DNA of 64,000 bases from Nocardioidaceae bacterium. Its GTDB lineage: Bacteria > Actinomycetota > Actinomycetes > Propionibacteriales > Nocardioidaceae. Position numbers and translations under genes: made by a program. Shown in pieces: positions 38,243 through 48,003 of the stretch (within the stretch, counting starts at the first letter, position 1; the number at the start of each line of letters is the position of its first letter). Location: NCBI GenBank assembly GCA_030655315.1, contig JAURVT010000034.1, forward strand, positions 1 through 64,000. The letters run 5' to 3'. The notes below the pieces were generated by a model. The model was given only the letters and a program-made list of their open reading frames with translations. It was not told the DNA's origin and made no database searches.

Positions 38243-38248
38243 TATGGT
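38243..38248 (+). promoter_or_regulatory. -10 hexamer TATGGT of pyk (leaderless promoter)
   Basis: TATGGT ends 7 nt before GTG 38256. An ATG at 38244 lies inside the hexamer, so using it as the start would require a different promoter. The AT-rich tract just upstream (GACTGTAAATCGTGACC) stands out from the local GC content. Confidence 0.55.
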
Positions 38249-38255
38249 GTCTCTC

Positions 38256-39713
38256 GTGCGTAGAGCCAAGATCGTTTGTACCCTCGGACCCGCCACCGAC
38301 CCCGAAGGCAAGCTCCTCGAGCTCGCCGAGGCTGGTATGGACGTCGCCCGGCTGAACATGAGCCACGGCGACCACCCCGACCACGCCATGAGGTACGACC
38401 AGGTGCGGGCCGCCACCGACAAGACCGGCAAGGCCATCGCGATCCTCGCGGACCTGCAGGGTCCCAAGATCCGTCTCGGCCGGTTCGCCGAGGGCCCGGT
38501 CGACCTCAGGGTCGGCGACACGTTCGTCGTCACCGTCGACGACGTGCTGGGCGACTCCGAGCGCTGCTCGACCACCTACAAGGGCCTGCCGGGCGACGTC
38601 AACGTCGGCGACCAGATCCTGATCGACGACGGCCGCGTCGGCCTGCGGGCCACCGCGGTCTCGGCCACCGACGTCACCTGCGTGTGCGAGATACCGGGCC
38701 GGCTCAGCAACAACAAGGGCATCAACCTCCCGGGCGTCGCGGTGAGCGTGCCCGCGATGTCCGAGAAGGACATCGACGACCTCCGCTGGGCGCTGCGCAA
38801 GGGCGTCGACTTCATCGCCCTGTCGTTCGTGCGCTCGGCCGAGGACGCCGCCGACGTGCACAAGATCATGGACGAGGAGGGCATCACCCGCCCGATCATC
38901 GCCAAGATCGAGAAGCCCCAGGCCGTCGAGAACCTCGACGAGATCATGGACGCCTTCGACGGCGTCATGGTGGCGCGCGGCGACCTCGGCGTCGAGCTGC
39001 CGCTCGAGCAGGTCCCGATCGTGCAGAAGCGCATCGTCGAGAAGGCCCGCCGCAACGCCAAGCCGGTCATCGTCGCCACCCAGATGCTCGAGTCGATGAT
39101 CAGCTCGCCCCGCCCCACGCGCGCCGAGGCGTCCGACGTCGCCAACGCGATCCTCGACGGCGCCGACGCGGTGATGCTCTCGGGCGAGACCAGCGTGGGC
39201 GAGTTCCCGATCGAGACCGTCCAGACGATGGCGCGGATCATCTCGACCACCGAGGGCGAGGGCCTGCCGCTGATGGCGGCCTACACCTGGAAGCCCAAGA
39301 CCCGCAGCGGCATCATCTGCCGCGCCGCGGCCGACGTCGCCGAGGCGATCGGCGCGCGCTACATCGTCTGCTTCACCACGATCGGCGGCTCGGCGCGACG
39401 CATGACGCGCTACCGCTCGCCCGTCCAGGTGCTGGCCTTCACGCCGGTGCCGGTGGTGCGCTCGCAGCTCGCGCTGTCGTGGGGCGTCGAGACGTTCCTG
39501 GTGCCCGAGGTCGAGCACACCGACGAGATGGTGCTGCAGGTCGACCGCGCGCTCTACGAGTCCGGTCGCCTGAACGAGGGCGAGGAGGTCGTCATCGTCG
39601 CCGGGAGCCCCCCGGGCATCCCGGGCTCGACCAACGCCGTGCGCATCCACCGGATGGGCGACGCCATCAAGGGCGTGTCGCCGGCGTACCGCACGCCGCT
39701 CGAGCGCACCTGA
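38256..39713 (+). CDS. pyk: Pyruvate kinase
   Basis: This enzyme makes pyruvate and ATP from phosphoenolpyruvate and ADP. The GTG at 38256 gives RRAKIVCTLGPAT, the usual N-terminus; an in-frame ATG at 38244 would add four residues but lies in the -10. Core motifs are MSHGDH, LADLQGPKIR, IAKIEKPQAVEN (catalytic Lys), MVARGDLGVELP and ATQMLESMI. The length of 485 residues suits a full type II enzyme with an allosteric C-terminal domain. Confidence 0.96.
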   Translation: MRRAKIVCTLGPATDPEGKLLELAEAGMDVARLNMSHGDHPDHAMRYDQVRAATDKTGKAIAILADLQGPKIRLGRFAEGPVDLRVGDTFVVTVDDVLGDSERCSTTYKGLPGDVNVGDQILIDDGRVGLRATAVSATDVTCVCEIPGRLSNNKGINLPGVAVSVPAMSEKDIDDLRWALRKGVDFIALSFVRSAEDAADVHKIMDEEGITRPIIAKIEKPQAVENLDEIMDAFDGVMVARGDLGVELPLEQVPIVQKRIVEKARRNAKPVIVATQMLESMISSPRPTRAEASDVANAILDGADAVMLSGETSVGEFPIETVQTMARIISTTEGEGLPLMAAYTWKPKTRSGIICRAAADVAEAIGARYIVCFTTIGGSARRMTRYRSPVQVLAFTPVPVVRSQLALSWGVETFLVPEVEHTDEMVLQVDRALYESGRLNEGEEVVIVAGSPPGIPGSTNAVRIHRMGDAIKGVSPAYRTPLERT

Positions 39714-39785: not shown

Positions 39786-41225
39786 TCAGGGGGTCCGCGC
39801 GGCGATCAGGGCGGCGTACCGACGTGCTCCCACGCCCTCGGCGACGTCGCCCATGCGCAGGACGGTCAGGCCGTCATACCCGTGGTCCTCCACCGCGTCG
39901 ACGATCCGGTCCCACCCCTCGTCGGAGTAGACGCCGCCCGCGAGCGCGTTCTCGCCCTTGAGGTCGACGCGCTGGCGGGTGGCCTCGTCGCCGACCCAGC
40001 CCACGAGGGTCTGGGCCAGGGAGTACTGCGGCGCGTAGTCCTGGTCCATCATCTCCAGGCAGGTGAAGTGCATGACGGTGTGCCGGCCGGTCTCGCGCTG
40101 CACGGTCCGGGCCAGGCCCACGAACCGGGCGTAGCCGTGGCCGCGCACCGGACCCGTGGTGCTGATCAGGCCCGACGTGACCTCGGCCGCCCGCGGGAAG
40201 TCCGGGTTCGTCATCGTCCAGTGGACGCCGGGGACCTTGTAGCCGAGGTCGGCGCGCGGGAACGTCCGGCCGAGCGCCTTCGCGACGGTGGTGAGCATCC
40301 GCTCGCCGTGCTCGGCGAGCGACGCGTTGTACCAGTCGACGACGTCGCGTCCGTAGCGCGTGTCGCGGTAGGTGCCGTCGGCGAAGAACGACTCGGCGTC
40401 GGCCGGCGGGGCGATCTGACGGACCGAGCGGTAGGACGTGCCCCAGGCGCGGTTGACCCGGCGCAGCGAGCCGTACCGGTCGACCGTGTCAGCGCGGAAG
40501 TCGGCGACCGCCAACGGCGAGTACGCCTGGAGCGCTCCGCGCGTCGGGTAGCCGGTGCCGGTGTCGTGCGCGTTGTACGACGGGTAGCGCAGCTCGCCCG
40601 ACGGGCCGAGCGAGACGTTCACCTCGACGACGTCTCGGCGCAGGTCGCGGCCGTATCGGTGCGCGAAGGCGCGGGTGAAGTCGCGGTACTCGCCGAGCAC
40701 CAGCTCGTCGGCCCAGCCCTGGACCGTCTCGGCCGAGACGTTGCCCTGCTCGCTGCGGTGCTTGAGGCCGTCGCGGTCGAGCGTCACCCCGTGCAGGCGC
40801 CGTCCGTCGTACTTGGACCACAGCCACGACGGCAGCAGGCTCGTGTAGTCGTCGCCGACGTTGCCGCCGCACTGGTGGAACGACAGGATCGGGGCCAGGT
40901 CGAGGCCCTGGGCCGTGACCGTGTCGAAGACGCGGTCGTAGTAGGACCAGTCGAACCGGTTGTCGCCCGCCTTCTCCACGTCGCCCCACCAGACGTCGAC
41001 GCTGACCGCCTGCACGCCGTAGGCCTTGACCCGGCGCAGGTCGGCGGTGAAGTCGGCCCAGTCGGTGACCTTGAGCGGAGCCATCACGTTGGCGGTGAAG
41101 TCGCCCGACGGGGCAGGGCGGTGGACGGACCCGGCCTGGGCCGGGGCGGAGAGGGCCACGGCGGCGGTGACGGACACCGCGATCGAGGTGGCCACGGCGA
41201 GGACAGCGGGGGAGCGCAGGCGCAT
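39786..41225 (-). CDS. Secreted beta-amylase (glycoside hydrolase family 14)
   Basis: This 479-residue protein has a signal peptide (LAVATSIAVSVTAAVALS, likely cut after APAQA). The two family 14 signatures are present: SFHQCGGNVGD near residue 113, and GPSGELRYPSY near residue 208 with the acid/base Glu. The second catalytic Glu is in LKGENALAGG near residue 423. Beta-amylases release maltose from the non-reducing ends of starch. They are common in plants and patchy in bacteria. ATG 41225 is chosen over an upstream in-frame start because it directly precedes the signal peptide. Confidence 0.9.
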   Translation of the reverse strand: MRLRSPAVLAVATSIAVSVTAAVALSAPAQAGSVHRPAPSGDFTANVMAPLKVTDWADFTADLRRVKAYGVQAVSVDVWWGDVEKAGDNRFDWSYYDRVFDTVTAQGLDLAPILSFHQCGGNVGDDYTSLLPSWLWSKYDGRRLHGVTLDRDGLKHRSEQGNVSAETVQGWADELVLGEYRDFTRAFAHRYGRDLRRDVVEVNVSLGPSGELRYPSYNAHDTGTGYPTRGALQAYSPLAVADFRADTVDRYGSLRRVNRAWGTSYRSVRQIAPPADAESFFADGTYRDTRYGRDVVDWYNASLAEHGERMLTTVAKALGRTFPRADLGYKVPGVHWTMTNPDFPRAAEVTSGLISTTGPVRGHGYARFVGLARTVQRETGRHTVMHFTCLEMMDQDYAPQYSLAQTLVGWVGDEATRQRVDLKGENALAGGVYSDEGWDRIVDAVEDHGYDGLTVLRMGDVAEGVGARRYAALIAARTP

Positions 41226-41280
41226 GGTCGTCAGTATCGAGGTGTGGCGCGGGTCACACAACCGGCGCACGCGGGGCGGG

Positions 41281-41402: not shown

Positions 41403-42053
41403 GTGTCCGCCGAAGCCCCTCGCACGCCCGCCCCGCGCCGCGTCGTCATCGCCGAGGACGAGGCGCTGATCCGGCTCGACCTCGCGGAGATGCTGACCGA
41501 GGAGGGCTACGAGGTCGTCGGGCAGGCCGCCGACGGGGAGCAGGCCGTGCGGCTGACGGTGAGCGAGCGACCCGACCTCGTCGTGATGGACGTCAAGATG
41601 CCCAAGCTCGACGGCATCTCGGCGGCCGAGCAGATCGCCGCGCAGCGCATCGCGCCCGTCGTCATGCTCACGGCGTTCAGCCAGCGCGACCTCGTCGAGC
41701 GGGCCCGCGACGCCGGCGCGATGGCCTACCTCGTCAAGCCGTTCAGCAAGTCCGACCTGGTGCCCGCCATCGAGATGGCGGTCAGCCGGTTCGCCGAGCT
41801 GGCCCACCTCGAGTCCGAGGTGCAGGACCTCACCGAGCGGCTCGCCGCCCGCAAGGCCGTCGACCGCGCCAAGGGCGTCCTGCAGGAGTCGCTCGGGCTC
41901 AGCGAGCCCGACGCGTTCCGCTGGATCCAGCGCACGGCGATGGACCTGAGGATGTCGATGCGGGAGGTCGCCGAGGGCGTCGTCGCGCAGGGACCGGCCC
42001 TCGCCGGCGGCACCGGAGCCACCGGTGACGGGCCGGTGACCGGCGGCGCCTGA
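41403..42053 (+). CDS. pdtaR: ANTAR-domain response regulator (PdtaR-type)
   Basis: This 216-residue protein has a receiver domain (VVIAEDEALIRLDLAEML, phospho-Asp in VVMDVKMPKLDG, Lys in YLVKPFSKSDL) and a C-terminal ANTAR RNA-binding domain (RKAVDRAKGVLQESLGLSEPDAFRWIQRTAMD). ANTAR regulators bind twin hairpin loops in mRNA leaders to prevent termination. The mycobacterial counterpart works with the sensor PdtaS. No sensor kinase gene lies nearby. Confidence 0.93.
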   Translation: MSAEAPRTPAPRRVVIAEDEALIRLDLAEMLTEEGYEVVGQAADGEQAVRLTVSERPDLVVMDVKMPKLDGISAAEQIAAQRIAPVVMLTAFSQRDLVERARDAGAMAYLVKPFSKSDLVPAIEMAVSRFAELAHLESEVQDLTERLAARKAVDRAKGVLQESLGLSEPDAFRWIQRTAMDLRMSMREVAEGVVAQGPALAGGTGATGDGPVTGGA

Positions 42054-42248: not shown

Positions 42249-43574
42249 ATGACACGCCCCTCACGTGTGGCGCGCATCGCTGCCATCGCCGCCGCCAGCG
42301 CCCTCGCGCTCGCCGCCTGCGGCGGTGGCGGAGACAGCAGCGACGAGTCCAGCGCCGCCGCGAGCTCGAGCTCCGGCTCGACGAACAAGCAGATCTACTT
42401 CGTCGACGGCAACACCGCCGACTACAGCTCGGACTTCGACGCCGGCACCCTCGCGGGCGTCAAGGCGACGTACCCGGGCCCGAAGCTCGCCGACGACTTC
42501 CGCGAGCGTCTGCTCGGTGTCGACAGCAGCCTCAAGGACTTCACCTACGCGCAGGAGTCGTACGACGCCGTCATCCTCGCGGCGCTGGCCGCCGAGGCCG
42601 CCGACAGCGACAACTCCAAGGCGATCGCCGAGCAGATGCAGGCCGTGTCCTCCGGTGGCACCAAGTGCACGTCCTTCCCGGACTGCAAGGAGCTCCTCGA
42701 CAACGACGAGGACATCGACTACGACGGCGTCAGCGGTCCGGTCGACTTCAACGCCACCGGCAGCCCGTCCGCCGCCACCATCGGCATCTACGAGTACGGC
42801 GAGGACAACAACTACAAGGCCGTGGACTACGAGGAGGGCGAGGTCACCGACTCCGGTGAGCCCGCTGCCAACCAGCAGATCACCGGCGACGTCCCCGACG
42901 GCGACGGCACGTTCACGGTCGGCTCGCTGCTGCCGCAGACCGGCGACCTCGCGTTCCTCGGCCCCCCGGAGATCGCCGGCGTCAAGCTGGCCGTCAACGA
43001 GCTCAACGAGGCCGGCGGAGTCCTCGGCGCGGACGCGACCATCGTCCAGGCCGACTCCGGTGACGGCACCCCGAACATCGCCCCGCAGGAGGTCGACAAG
43101 CTCCTCGCGGCCAACTCCGACGTCATCGTCGGCGCGGCCTCCTCGTCGGTCTCGCTCAGCGTGATCGACAAGATCGTCAACGCGGGCGTCCTGCAGATCT
43201 CGCCCGCGAACACCTCGACGGCGTTCGACACCTACGCCGACAAGGGCCTGTACTTCCGCACGGCCCCCTCGGACGTGCTCCAGGGCAACGTCATGGCGAA
43301 CCTGCTCACCGACGACGGCAACACCGACATCGCGATCCTGGCCCGCCAGGACTCCTACGGTGAGGCCCTCGCCGACAACGTCGAGAAGTTCTTCACCGAG
43401 GCCGGCGGCAACGTCGTCGTCAAGAAGCTGTACGCGCCCGACGCGGCCAACTTCACCGCCGAGGTCAACGACGTCAAGGGCGCCGACCCGGACGCCATCG
43501 TCCTGATCGCGTTCGACGAGACCAAGAAGATCATCCCCGAGATGATCAAGGCCGGCATCGGACCGAACAGCTGA
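42249..43574 (+). CDS. Circularly permuted LivJ-type branched-chain amino-acid-binding lipoprotein
   Basis: This 441-residue lipoprotein starts at ATG 42249 after GGAGG. The lipobox LALAAC puts the lipid on Cys24, followed by a Ser-rich linker. Residues 47-199 (KQIYFVDGNTADYS to DNNYKAVDYEEGEV) correspond to the C-terminal half of family members. Residues 200-219 form a linker. Residues 220-441 (GTFTVGSLLPQTGDLAFLGP to KIIPEMIKAGIGPNS) correspond to the N-terminal half. In a normal member AGIGPN runs directly into KQIYFVDGN; here the gene stops at that point. Both halves appear complete, each present once, and the total length is normal. The likely partners are livHMGF on the opposite strand. 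Confidence 0.93.
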   Translation: MTRPSRVARIAAIAAASALALAACGGGGDSSDESSAAASSSSGSTNKQIYFVDGNTADYSSDFDAGTLAGVKATYPGPKLADDFRERLLGVDSSLKDFTYAQESYDAVILAALAAEAADSDNSKAIAEQMQAVSSGGTKCTSFPDCKELLDNDEDIDYDGVSGPVDFNATGSPSAATIGIYEYGEDNNYKAVDYEEGEVTDSGEPAANQQITGDVPDGDGTFTVGSLLPQTGDLAFLGPPEIAGVKLAVNELNEAGGVLGADATIVQADSGDGTPNIAPQEVDKLLAANSDVIVGAASSSVSLSVIDKIVNAGVLQISPANTSTAFDTYADKGLYFRTAPSDVLQGNVMANLLTDDGNTDIAILARQDSYGEALADNVEKFFTEAGGNVVVKKLYAPDAANFTAEVNDVKGADPDAIVLIAFDETKKIIPEMIKAGIGPNS

Positions 43575-43594: not shown

Positions 43595-43630
43595 AGGCCC
43601 CGTCCCACCCTCGCGGGTGGGGCGGGGCCT
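43595..43630 (+). terminator. Terminator after the permuted binding-protein gene
   Basis: The 16-bp arms AGGCCCCGTCCCACCC and GGGTGGGGCGGGGCCT (one G-T wobble) flank TCGC and are followed by TTCGCGTTCT. The stem starts 20 nt after the stop codon. Confidence 0.8.
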
Positions 43631-43756: not shown

Positions 43757-43953
43757 CCGGCGGTGCGTCAGCAACCACCCGTGGGCAGGGCGGTGCGTGA
43801 ACAACCAGGCGCCGGGTCTCGGTGGTTGCTGACGCACCGGCGGTGCCGGTCGCTGGTTGCTCACGCACCGGCGGTGGGTATGGCCCCAGGATCGGGCGGA
43901 TCGTGGTGCCATACCCACCGGTGCCCCGCCGGGGAGGTGCCATACCCACCGCC
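43757..43953. repeat. Cluster of interlocked inverted repeats between two convergent liv genes
   Basis: Arm a (43761-43779, CGGTGCGTCAGCAACCACC) pairs with a' (43821-43839). Arm b (43791-43808, CGGTGCGTGAACAACCAG) pairs with b' (43853-43870) at 17 of 18 positions. The order a, b, a', b' means the stems interlock. Arm c (43872-43884, CGGTGGGTATGGC) pairs with 43908-43920, and the right arm recurs directly at 43939-43951. The rest of 43631-44019 holds no gene. Confidence 0.75.
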
Positions 43954-43971
43954 ACCACCGCCGGGACGCAC

Positions 43972-44008
43972 GACGGCCCGCCGCCCCACGCGGGGGTGGC
44001 GGGCCGTC
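43972..44008 (-). terminator. Terminator of the livHMGF operon
   Basis: GC-rich arms at 43972-43987 and 43993-44008 pair along 16 bp with one G-T wobble. On the minus strand the stem begins 11 nt after the livF stop. Confidence 0.7.
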
Positions 44009-44019
44009 AGGTGTGGTGC

Positions 44020-44847
44020 TCAGGCCTTGGCGAGGGTGCCCAGGTAGAGCTCGATCACCTTGGGGTCGTTCATCAGCTCGCGGCCGGGGGCGGTGTAGGC
44101 GTTGCGTCCCTGGTCCAGGACGTAGCCGCGGTCGCAGATCTGCAGGCAGCGACGGGCGTTCTGCTCGACCATGATGATCGAGACGCCGGCACGGTTGATC
44201 GCGCGCGTCTGGACGAACACCTCGTCCTGCAGCGCGGGCGACAGGCCCGCGGACGGCTCGTCGAGCAGGAGCACGGACGGCTCCATCATGAGCGCGCGGC
44301 CCATCGCGACCATCTGGCGCTCACCACCGGACAGCTGGCCGGCGCGCTGGGTCTGGCGCTCGATCAGGGCCGGGAAGATGCTGCCGACGAAGTCGATCCG
44401 CTCGTCCAGCTTCTTGGGCGCCTGGTAGCAGCCCATCTGCAGGTTCTCGAAGATCGTCAGGCTCGGGAAGACGTTGTTCGTCTGCGGCACGAACCCGATG
44501 CCCTTGGTGACGAGGCTGTCGGCACGGTCGTTGGTGATCTCCTCGCCGCGCAGCTTGACGCTGCCGGTGTGGATGTTGACCAGGCCGAACAGGGCCTTGA
44601 GGAGCGTCGACTTGCCGGCGCCGTTGGGACCGATGATGCCGACCAGCTCGCCCTCGTGGCAGTACAGGTCGGTGCCGTTGAGGATGTTGACGCCCGGCAG
44701 GTACCCGGCGATCAGGTCGTCGGCACGCAGGATGGCGCCCTCGGCCCGTCGCAGGTGCTCGTCGCGACCGGCGTCCTCGGGCGGCAGGCCCGGGATCTCG
44801 CTGACGGCGTCGGGGGAGTCGGGCCCGGGGACGAGCTCGCTGGTCAT
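44020..44847 (-). CDS. livF: Branched-chain amino-acid ABC transporter ATPase LivF
   Basis: This 275-residue cytoplasmic ATPase has Walker A GPNGAGKST, signature LSGGERQMV and Walker B VLLLDEPSAGLSP, the LivF subgroup pattern. GYLPGVNILNGTDL starts the domain and the switch His position reads IIMVEQNA, as usual for LivF. A 40-residue acidic N-terminal extension (LVPGPDSPDAVSEIPG) is longer than typical. The ATG overlaps the livG stop by 4 nt. Confidence 0.95.
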   Translation of the reverse strand: MTSELVPGPDSPDAVSEIPGLPPEDAGRDEHLRRAEGAILRADDLIAGYLPGVNILNGTDLYCHEGELVGIIGPNGAGKSTLLKALFGLVNIHTGSVKLRGEEITNDRADSLVTKGIGFVPQTNNVFPSLTIFENLQMGCYQAPKKLDERIDFVGSIFPALIERQTQRAGQLSGGERQMVAMGRALMMEPSVLLLDEPSAGLSPALQDEVFVQTRAINRAGVSIIMVEQNARRCLQICDRGYVLDQGRNAYTAPGRELMNDPKVIELYLGTLAKA

Positions 44848-45710
44848 CGTGCCTCCGTCTCGGGCGCGGCCGAGGGGTCGCGCTCCTGGGTGATGTCGGT
44901 GTCGTGGTGCTCACCGAGGTAGGCGTCGATGACGCGCTGGTCGCCCATGACCTGGTCGGGCGTGCCCTGGGCGATCACCTTGCCCTGAGCCATCACGATG
45001 ACGTGGTCGGAGATGTCGCGGACCATGTCCATGTCGTGCTCGACGAAGAGCACGGTCATGCCGTCCTCGCGCAGGGACTTGACGTGGCCGAGCAGGGACT
45101 GCTTCAGGGCCGGGTTGACGCCGGCCATGGGCTCGTCGAGCATCACCAGCTCGGGCTCGACCATGAGGGCGCGCGCCATCTCGAGGAGCTTGCGCTGGCC
45201 GCCGGAGAGCGACCCCGCGAAGTCGTCCTCCTTGGCGTCGAGCTTGAACCGCGCGAGGAGCTCGCGGGCCCGCTCGGTGTTGGCCTTCTCCTGACCGCTC
45301 CACAGGCCGCTGAACAGGGCGCTGAAGAACTTCTCGCCCTTCTGGCCAGTGGCCGCGAGGCGCATGTTCTCGAGCACCGAGAGCTTGGAGAGCACCTTGG
45401 TGAGCTGGAAGGTGCGCACCATGCCGAGACGCGCGACCTTGTGGGCCGGCGTGTTGGCGATGGAGCGACCGTTGAACGTCCACGTGCCCGTGTCGGCCTC
45501 GTCGAAGCCGGTGAGCAGGTTGAAGAACGTCGTCTTGCCGGCGCCGTTGGGGCCGATCAGCGCGGTGATCTTGCCCCGCGGGATCTCGACGTGCTCGACG
45601 TCGACGGCCTTGAGGCCGCCGAAGGTCCGGGTGACGTTGTCGGCCACCAGGATCGGGTCGTCGATCGAGGGCTTGGCGGGGTCCTGGGCGAGCTCTGTCT
45701 TATCGGGCAT
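44844..45710 (-). CDS. livG: Branched-chain amino-acid ABC transporter ATPase LivG
   Basis: This 288-residue ATPase has Walker A GPNGAGKTT, signature LSGGQRKLLE, Walker B LVMLDEPMAGVNP and switch VLFVEHDMDMV, all characteristic of LivG. Its start overlaps livM by 11 nt and its end overlaps livF by 4 nt, so the ATPase pair is translationally coupled. Confidence 0.95.
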   Translation of the reverse strand: MPDKTELAQDPAKPSIDDPILVADNVTRTFGGLKAVDVEHVEIPRGKITALIGPNGAGKTTFFNLLTGFDEADTGTWTFNGRSIANTPAHKVARLGMVRTFQLTKVLSKLSVLENMRLAATGQKGEKFFSALFSGLWSGQEKANTERARELLARFKLDAKEDDFAGSLSGGQRKLLEMARALMVEPELVMLDEPMAGVNPALKQSLLGHVKSLREDGMTVLFVEHDMDMVRDISDHVIVMAQGKVIAQGTPDQVMGDQRVIDAYLGEHHDTDITQERDPSAAPETEAR

Positions 45711-46671
45711 CGAGCGCGATCTCCTTACGGTCGCCGAAGACTCCCTGGGGACGGAAGATCATCAGCAGGATGAGGGCGATCCCCACGATCATGAACCTCA
45801 CGGAGCCGATCTGCTGATCGGTGATCAGCCAGGTCGGCAGGATCGGGTTGTCGCCGGCGGTGAGGTCGCCGAGGATGCCGCTGATCAGGGACAGCGAGCC
45901 CCAGAACACGACGGCACCGAAGATGGGGCCGAAGATCCGGGCGGCGCCGCCGAGGATCAGCATCGTGTAGACGATGAACGTCAGGTCCGAGCTGAAGTTG
46001 TCGGGCTGCACCGAGTTCTGCCCGAACGCGAGGATGAAGCCGCCGAGGCAGCCGATCAGGCCACCGAGCACGAGCGCCTGCATCTTGTAGGAGTAGACGT
46101 TCTTGCCCAGGCTGCGGACGGCCTCCTCGTCCTCGCGGATGGCCTTCAGCACGCGTCCCCAGGGGGAGCGCATGAGGAGCAGCAGCAGCAGGCTCGACAG
46201 CAGGACCAGGGTCCAGCCGACGACCATCACCCAGAAGTCGTCCGGGCGGAAGCCCAGCACCGGCCCGCTGAACGGGTTGGCCTCCTGGAAGGCGGTGGAG
46301 AACTGCGAGACGCCGTCGCGCCCGTTGAAGTAGTCCTTGAACGAGGCCCCGAAGAACAGCCGGATGACCTCGGCCGCCGCGATGGTCGCGATGGCCAGGT
46401 AGTCGGCTCTGAGTCGTAGCGTCGGGATGCCGAGGATCAGCGCGAGCAGCGCCGTGGCGGCGAGCCCGACGAAGATCGCGACGAAGAACGGCAGGTCGAA
46501 CGAGGCGACGCTGACGGCGAACGCGTACGCGCCCACCGCCAGGAAGCCGGCCTGGCCGAAGTTGAGCAGCCCGGCGTAGCCGAACTGGACGTTGAGGCCG
46601 ATCGCGGCGAGGCAGAAGTACACGGCCTGGATGCCGATGGCGGCGCGCAGTGCGCTCTCGATGGTGTCCAT
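45700..46671 (-). CDS. livM: Branched-chain amino-acid ABC transporter permease LivM
   Basis: This 323-residue permease has about eight helices and the family phrases LNVQFGYAGLLNFGQAGFLAVGAYA, LRADYLAIATIAAAEVIRL and the cytoplasmic EAA-like loop SPWGRVLKAIREDEEAVRSLGKNV. It ends in FRPQGVFGDRKE. The start at 46671 lies 15 nt after the livH stop. Confidence 0.94.
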   Translation of the reverse strand: MDTIESALRAAIGIQAVYFCLAAIGLNVQFGYAGLLNFGQAGFLAVGAYAFAVSVASFDLPFFVAIFVGLAATALLALILGIPTLRLRADYLAIATIAAAEVIRLFFGASFKDYFNGRDGVSQFSTAFQEANPFSGPVLGFRPDDFWVMVVGWTLVLLSSLLLLLLMRSPWGRVLKAIREDEEAVRSLGKNVYSYKMQALVLGGLIGCLGGFILAFGQNSVQPDNFSSDLTFIVYTMLILGGAARIFGPIFGAVVFWGSLSLISGILGDLTAGDNPILPTWLITDQQIGSVRFMIVGIALILLMIFRPQGVFGDRKEIALDAR

Positions 46672-46686: not shown

Positions 46687-48003
46687 TCAGCCGATGCGTT
46701 CTCTGCGTCCGAGCAGACCTTGCGGTCGCACGAGCAGGATGATGATGAGCAGGAACAGGGCGGCGGCGATCTTGAGCTCCGACGGGATGAAGATCGTCGA
46801 CACCTCGATCAGGACGCCCACGATGAGGCTGCCGATGATGGCGCCCCAGATCGAGCCGAGACCACCGACGGTGATCGCGGCGAACATGACCAGCAGGATC
46901 TGCGCGCCGAGGTCGAACTTCACCGACTGGGTGAAGCCGAGCAGGACGCCGCAGGTACCGGCCAGGGCCGCGCCCACCGTCCACACGACCGTGATGACGC
47001 GGTCGACGTTGATGCCGGTGGAGGCCGCGAGCGCCGGGTTGTCGGCGATCGCGCGGGTGGCGCGTCCGATGCGGGTGCGCTGCAGGGCGAACGTGACGCC
47101 CAGCAGGAGCACGATCGCGACGAACAGGCAGACCAGGTCGCGGATCGTGTAGGTGATCGGGCCGGCCGTGATGCCCTCGGGCGTCGAGTACTGCCGGTAG
47201 TTGCTGGTGCGTCCGCCGGTGAAGAACTGGAAGACGTTGCGCAGCAGGAACTGCAGGCCGATCGAGACGATCATCATGGCGATCAGCCCCGTGCCCCGCC
47301 GTCGTAGTCGTCTCCAGAAGACGGTGTCCTGCACGTACCCGAAGGCACCGGACAGGATGATCGCCAGCAGGGCCGAGATCCAGATGGACAACCCCGCCGT
47401 CACGTTGAACGTGTAGGTGAGGATCGCGCCGAAGGTGACCAGCTCGCCGTGCGCGAAGTTGGTCAGGCCGGTGGTGCCGAAGATCATCGACAGGCCCAGG
47501 GCGCCGAGCGCGAGGATCACGCCGAAGTAGAGGCCGTTGTAGATGATCTGGGGGAGCTCGCTGAGCCCGCTGGCGGCCTGGCTGTTGCCGGCGCCGAGCA
47601 GGTAGTTGACGCGCAGACCGAGCGTGTTCGTCAGCGTGATCGTGCGGGTGGCGGACTGGCCCTCGCGCAGGGCCACCCCGTCGGGCAGCGAGTCCTCGTC
47701 GAGGGTGACCTCGACCTGCTCGCCGGAGACGTAGGGGACCTCGGCCTCCCAGACGCCGCGGTCGTTGCTGGTCGCCTCGACGTCGGTGCCGCCGGTGGTG
47801 ACGGTGACGGTGGCGCCCTCGACGGGCGTCGAGCCGCCGTCGGACTTGTCCTGGAGGAGGCCGCGGACCGTGGTGGTCTGCCCGTCCTCCGCGGACACCG
47901 CAGCAGGGGCGCGGCCGTCCGCCGCGGTGGCGGGATGGGTGAATCCGCCGAGAAGCACCGCTGTGGTCAGCAGTGCCATGAGTGCCGCTATGCGCAGACG
48001 CAC
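46687..48003 (-). CDS. livH: Permease LivH with secreted beta-sandwich-like N-terminal extension
   Basis: This 438-residue protein is much longer than a standard LivH (about 290-310). Residues 1-27 form a cleavable-looking signal peptide (ALMALLTTAVLLGGFTHPATA). Residues 40-130 read TTVRGLLQDKSDGGSTPVEG, VTVTTGGTDVEATSNDRGVW and so on, a carboxypeptidase-regulatory-like beta sandwich. The permease starts near residue 145 (PQIIYNGLYFGVILALGALG) and has the LivH phrases GLTNFAHGELV and GRATRAIADNPALAASTGI. The GTG start at 48003 is the first gene of the operon. Confidence 0.9.
   Translation of the reverse strand: MRLRIAALMALLTTAVLLGGFTHPATAADGRAPAAVSAEDGQTTTVRGLLQDKSDGGSTPVEGATVTVTTGGTDVEATSNDRGVWEAEVPYVSGEQVEVTLDEDSLPDGVALREGQSATRTITLTNTLGLRVNYLLGAGNSQAASGLSELPQIIYNGLYFGVILALGALGLSMIFGTTGLTNFAHGELVTFGAILTYTFNVTAGLSIWISALLAIILSGAFGYVQDTVFWRRLRRRGTGLIAMMIVSIGLQFLLRNVFQFFTGGRTSNYRQYSTPEGITAGPITYTIRDLVCLFVAIVLLLGVTFALQRTRIGRATRAIADNPALAASTGINVDRVITVVWTVGAALAGTCGVLLGFTQSVKFDLGAQILLVMFAAITVGGLGSIWGAIIGSLIVGVLIEVSTIFIPSELKIAAALFLLIIILLVRPQGLLGRRERIG

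Follow-up and report, generated by a model that had tools for sequence, protein, structure and literature searches.

The window, i.e. the whole stretch of 64,000 nucleotides of Nocardioidaceae DNA that was analysed, contains an ORF at 42249–43574 on the plus strand that begins with ATG and encodes a protein of 441 amino acids with its lipobox cysteine at residue 24. A significant profile match, a lipoprotein signal and adjoining LivHMGF-type genes place this protein among the Peripla_BP_6, or LivJ-type (HAAT), substrate-binding proteins (SBPs). Table 1 lists the features of the gene and of its neighbours. The order pyk, ANTAR regulator, SBP and convergent livF-livG-livM-livH was found in most Nocardioidaceae loci examined, both in those with an SBP of the usual (canonical) order and in those with the circularly permuted form described below. 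In a few canonical loci the operon or the pyk-regulator pair lies on the opposite side. Since both forms occupy the same locus, the permuted gene replaces the canonical orthologue.

Table 1. Coordinates of the SBP gene parts and of the neighbouring genes in the window.
Feature	Positions	Strand	Basis
Pyruvate kinase (pyk), upstream landmark of the conserved locus	38244–39713	+	PF00224, PF02887; synteny
ANTAR-domain response regulator immediately upstream of the SBP gene	41403–42053	+	PF00072, PF03861; synteny
Lipoprotein signal peptide, lipobox Cys24 and Ser-rich spacer (residues 1–46)	42249–42386	+	Translation, lipobox
Canonical C-half, now N-terminal (residues 47–199); first element is the KQIYFVDGN strand	42387–42845	+	PF01094 end match; order compared with canonical orthologues
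Linker from old C-terminus to old N-terminus (residues 200–219)	42846–42905	+	Permuted proteins aligned with canonical ones
Canonical N-half, now C-terminal (residues 220–441), ending GIGPNS, and stop	42906–43574	+	PF13458, residues 222–438 = profile 2–216; order compared with canonical orthologues
Strong 16-bp hairpin, probable terminator (weak U-tract)	about 43595–43630	+	20 nt past the stop; MFE z −4.9
LivF-type ABC ATPase, convergent transporter operon	44020–44847	−	PF00005; LivF/UrtE-like, below NCBIfam cut-offs
LivG-type ABC ATPase	44844–45710	−	PF00005, PF12399; best NCBIfam match LivG, below cut-off
LivM-type permease	45700–46671	−	PF02653; best NCBIfam match LivM, below cut-off
LivH-type permease, lengthened at its N-terminus by about 150 extracytoplasmic residues	46687–48003	−	PF02653 at residues 154–423

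A gene for a glycosyl hydrolase of family 14 (beta-amylase-type; 39786–41270, minus strand) lies between pyk and the regulator, and it was not detected in this position in the relatives examined. At the N-terminus of LivH (47545–48003, minus strand), a signal-like segment and some 110 extracytoplasmic residues precede the permease; they match CarboxypepD_reg weakly, at an E-value of 7.5e-4 that does not reach the cut-off. A similar extension is present in nearly every LivH at the locus, in all families read and next to permuted or canonical SBPs alike; it might contact the SBP. Between the SBP gene and livF (43757–44008) there are several direct repeats and imperfect palindromes (GGTTGCTSACGCACCG, GTGGGTATGGCACC), which recur at a few other sites in the genome in the manner of a REP-like dispersed repeat. 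A consensus promoter scan reported no promoter. A preliminary description of this DNA had placed a terminator 20 nt behind the SBP stop codon. The hairpin is indeed there; its U-tract is weak, and it was not among the terminators reported by a consensus scan.

The same description had proposed that the two halves of the SBP stand in reversed order behind a normal lipoprotein signal. In the Pfam search, residues 222–438 matched positions 2–216 of the 343-position PF13458 profile (E = 8e-32), and the rest of this profile did not align anywhere in the protein. Residues 47–199 searched alone matched the end of PF01094 (profile positions 266–350 of 353), barely above the cut-off. Searched separately, the halves thus give two matches in reversed order, and canonical orthologues contain the same two blocks in the opposite order within a single ORF. 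Collinear matches over the full length came from other permuted proteins, with no such match to canonical ones. At the junction the canonical proteins read '...AGxGPQDVQTYFVDGN...', whereas the window protein ends in '...AGIGPNS*' and carries '...GSTNKQIYFVDGN...' in its N-terminal part, i.e. it stops where the canonical protein goes on to the strand, as had been claimed. Across the permuted junctions every block is kept and none is doubled, so that each half is present once. The alignment of permuted and canonical proteins also reproduced the proposed boundaries between signal, halves and linker. These comparisons confirm, at the level of sequence, a naturally circularly permuted LivJ-type lipoprotein. 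The linker joins the old termini and is partially conserved inside the Nocardioidaceae permuted clade; its supposed acidity is not conserved.

Comparison with known structures gave the same picture. Only the N-half of the permuted protein aligned to LivJ-type PDB entries (best match 221–435), whereas the de-permuted sequence aligned over most of its length (2–305 to 4gnr, 11–308 to 1usg). Both halves are homologous to LivJ, the leucine-specific binding protein and other HAAT SBPs (PF13458; PDB 1usg, 1z15, 3ip5, 4gnr), which likewise adjoin LivHMGF-type genes and share the pocket motifs. The window protein differs from them in its reversed halves, in its new termini before the YxVDGN strand and in the linker between the old termini. 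An AlphaFold model calculated from a two-sequence alignment instead of a deep one reached a pLDDT of 36 and was discarded.

We scanned 342 genomes of the family, and 25 of them, including that of the window, carry the permuted order. The 24 others (62–70% identity) comprise 11 single-contig assemblies, and a scan of contigs identified Marmoricola sp. Leaf446 as one named relative, whose contig_6 shares its protein with the member genome G116. Most of the remaining close matches in the family are canonical, with the halves in normal order and N-halves 53–72% identical. The permuted genomes contain only one close SBP copy. No relative turned up when viral contigs were scanned for further sequences. 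As the window derives from a 57-contig draft, the order could in principle reflect an assembly or sequencing artefact. Its presence in 24 other genomes, 11 of them single-contig, excludes misassembly, and six further families described below share the order, so that we give an artefact practically no weight. A chimera of two unrelated SBPs was also ruled out, as each half clusters with the same Nocardioidaceae orthologues as the other.

The dN/dS values between closely related permuted pairs range from 0.08 to 0.23, and the permuted genes are under purifying selection. The LivJ pocket motifs located by alignment (S299, A320/T322, Y370, the E424 region and D53) are conserved in permuted and canonical proteins and are drawn from both halves; we take these residues to line the ligand pocket, as in LivJ. 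D53 lies six residues inside the moved block, near the new N-terminus. A gene that is decaying or has lost its role in uptake is very improbable given these dN/dS values, the retained pocket motifs, its position as the sole close copy adjoining LivFGMH and the fact that it segregates with its own permease. The permutation probably leaves the two-lobed fold and the binding of amino acids unchanged, and homology would place the cut in a loop of lobe 2. Separately, Cys140 and Cys146 (about 42666–42686) do not vary in any of the 75 proteins compared, whether canonical or permuted, and they probably form a disulphide in the C-half.

Within Nocardioidaceae, one change is enough to divide permuted and canonical genomes in the LivM+LivH tree and likewise in the LivF+LivG tree; the tree of pyk and the regulator needs 12 changes between the two forms. 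Two close relatives, G322 (locus L070, permuted) and G248 (locus L096, canonical), carry opposite versions between matching flanks. Both flanks are 88–92% identical in DNA and the pyruvate kinases are 97% identical, while the SBP-LivFGMH block has a DNA identity of about 72% and protein identities of 45–77%. Together with the trees, this divergence between matching flanks indicates that the permuted SBP and the transporter genes belonging to it move as a unit. Most simply, the SBP-LivFGMH cassette was moved by homologous recombination.

Permuted orthologues were found in seven Actinomycetota families, i.e. Nocardioidaceae (f1) and the families f28, f37, f50, f58, f71 and f112. All four f28 genomes and about ten f37 genomes (plus one diverged copy) are permuted, and in f50 a permuted query is matched in 84 of 99 genomes, in 82 of the 99 over essentially its full length. 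The preliminary description had called the arrangement rare, which does not hold for a form present in 25 of the 342 surveyed genomes of its own family, usual in another family and most likely of several origins. Two cut sites are used. Cut A, just before the YxVDGN strand, occurs in f1, f28, f37 and f50, and cut B, about 25 residues past cut A and after DGNxGNALGExFxxG, in f58, f71 and f112. The linkers are alike inside clades and unlike across clades.

In a tree of the de-permuted SBPs the order changes at least five times, with seven gains if only gains are allowed and about nine reversions if there was a single gain. Under the faster model and quick tree used for the SBP AU tests, forcing all permuted SBPs into one clade was rejected (214 log units worse, p-AU 1e-4), as was one clade of f1 with f28/f37 (p 0.016); one clade of f50, f71, f112 and f58 was not rejected. 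The tree of the LivG/M/H partners shows four changes and also rejects one permuted clade (p-AU 6e-68). It contains a single, fully supported permuted clade in Nocardioidaceae and places f28/f37 as sister to this family with support of 80, so that one gain and one reversion are possible there. As both trees reject one permuted clade, at least three origins of the permutation in Actinomycetota are most likely, with reversion and gene conversion as caveats to this reading of the trees. A candidate reversion to the canonical form, locus L119, was rejected: its SBP lies among permuted ones, yet the partner tree groups it with canonical genomes, and its position in the SBP tree is therefore probably a long-branch effect. 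For L119 a single permuted clade was not rejected (p-AU 0.09).

The residue at which cut A falls is almost identical in f1, f28, f37 and f50, and these families conserve the locus, which would fit one ancient permutation at the base of the actinobacterial subfamily followed by repeated reversion, for example through a second duplication-and-loss cycle. We consider this unlikely, since on the SBP tree it takes nine reversions where five changes overall suffice, the outgroup and every reference LivJ protein have the canonical order, and there are two different cut sites with dissimilar linkers. Alternatively, one permutation could have spread horizontally, after which gene conversion between co-resident permuted and local canonical copies would have made one origin look like several. 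Exchange of the cassette is documented in Nocardioidaceae, and genome G951 has permuted and canonical copies side by side. Against this, the unpermuted partner genes give the same separate clades, and in trees of each half, which are noisy, the Nocardioidaceae permuted proteins stay with the canonical ones of the same family. Moreover, conversion across the permuted order would require matching on each half. This second scenario thus appears quite improbable.

With a probability of roughly 0.85, the gene would encode a functional membrane-anchored permuted SBP of a Liv-type (HAAT) ABC importer that originated by duplication, separately in several Actinomycetota, and whose cassette then spread. 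The proposed route leads from tandem duplication of the SBP gene through fusion to removal of the outer halves. It would have been taken once by the ancestor of the permuted cassette of Nocardioidaceae and independently elsewhere in Actinomycetota. In the present protein a linker of about 20 residues connects the old termini, and the new ones are situated immediately ahead of the YxVDGN strand. Homologous recombination at the pyk-regulator locus would later have spread the permuted SBP, together with the LivFGMH genes belonging to it, as an allelic cassette. Duplication of the SBP gene at the pyk-ANTAR locus recurs: tandem, unfused canonical SBP genes are present at L121 (G125, contig C78, 5385–8022) and L150 (G847, contig C33, 7936–11411). 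At L217 (G951, contig C374, 1293–3950) the regulator and livF enclose two SBP genes in tandem, one canonical and the other permuted and strongly diverged. The duplication-and-loss route is likely, as it fits the tandem copies at these three loci. No fused N-C-N-C intermediate was found among the relatives' loci examined.

As the cut probably lies in a lobe-2 loop, the lipid anchor would leave from lobe 2 and not from lobe 1, judging from the known LivJ fold. The linker would add a fourth crossing near the hinge and may tune opening and docking on LivHM. On balance, we lean towards the Liv-type SBP of the pyk-ANTAR locus being a hot spot of recurrent permutation, in which three or more lineages would each have opened one and the same loop region of lobe 2 on their own, with two cut points among them. 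The co-inheritance of the Nocardioidaceae permuted and canonical alleles with matching permeases would suggest selection on the position of the lipid anchor and the hinge linker.

Natural circular permutation is already known, including one permuted type I SBP. TpMglB-2 (Tp0684) of Treponema pallidum, the founder of the 'Type Ic' SBPs, is a permuted type I lipid-anchored SBP reported to have a working binding cleft; it is a glucose-binding relative of MglB in which the first three N-lobe strands are now C-terminal, and a fourth hinge crossing was noted (PMC4990184). The window protein, judged here from sequence alone, is likewise a naturally permuted, lipid-anchored type I SBP. It differs in the cut, its complete N-half (about 222 residues) being C-terminal with the part from the YxVDGN strand in front, and its Pfam and PDB matches are LivJ-type amino-acid SBPs, not MglB-like sugar-binding ones. 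We found no evidence that the two permutations share descent. Other natural permutations include saposin/swaposin, DNA methyltransferases and transhydrogenases, with duplication as one proposed route (PMC3320104). In contrast to these, close relatives here differ in permutation between alleles at one orthologous locus, partner genes included. Within the open-access literature on permutation and SBPs, where TpMglB-2 was the sole natural type I case (earlier notice elsewhere is possible), the new elements are the Liv-type case, the permuted and canonical alleles at one locus, the co-inheritance with permeases and the probable repeated origin at neighbouring cut points.

Circular permutation of proteins is known mainly from protein engineering, and the natural cases mostly separate distant homologues, in which the step and its consequences are no longer readable. 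Profile searches break up or shorten permuted proteins of this kind. The permuted and canonical orthologues described here are about 65–70% identical at one locus, even where the flanking DNA is about 90% identical, and such pairs are natural templates for permuted binding-protein sensors. Owing to the shared locus and the apparent recurrence, the effect of moving the termini of a Venus-flytrap protein on binding, on docking to the ABC permease and on membrane anchoring becomes testable, as does the question of whether selection favours the permutation.
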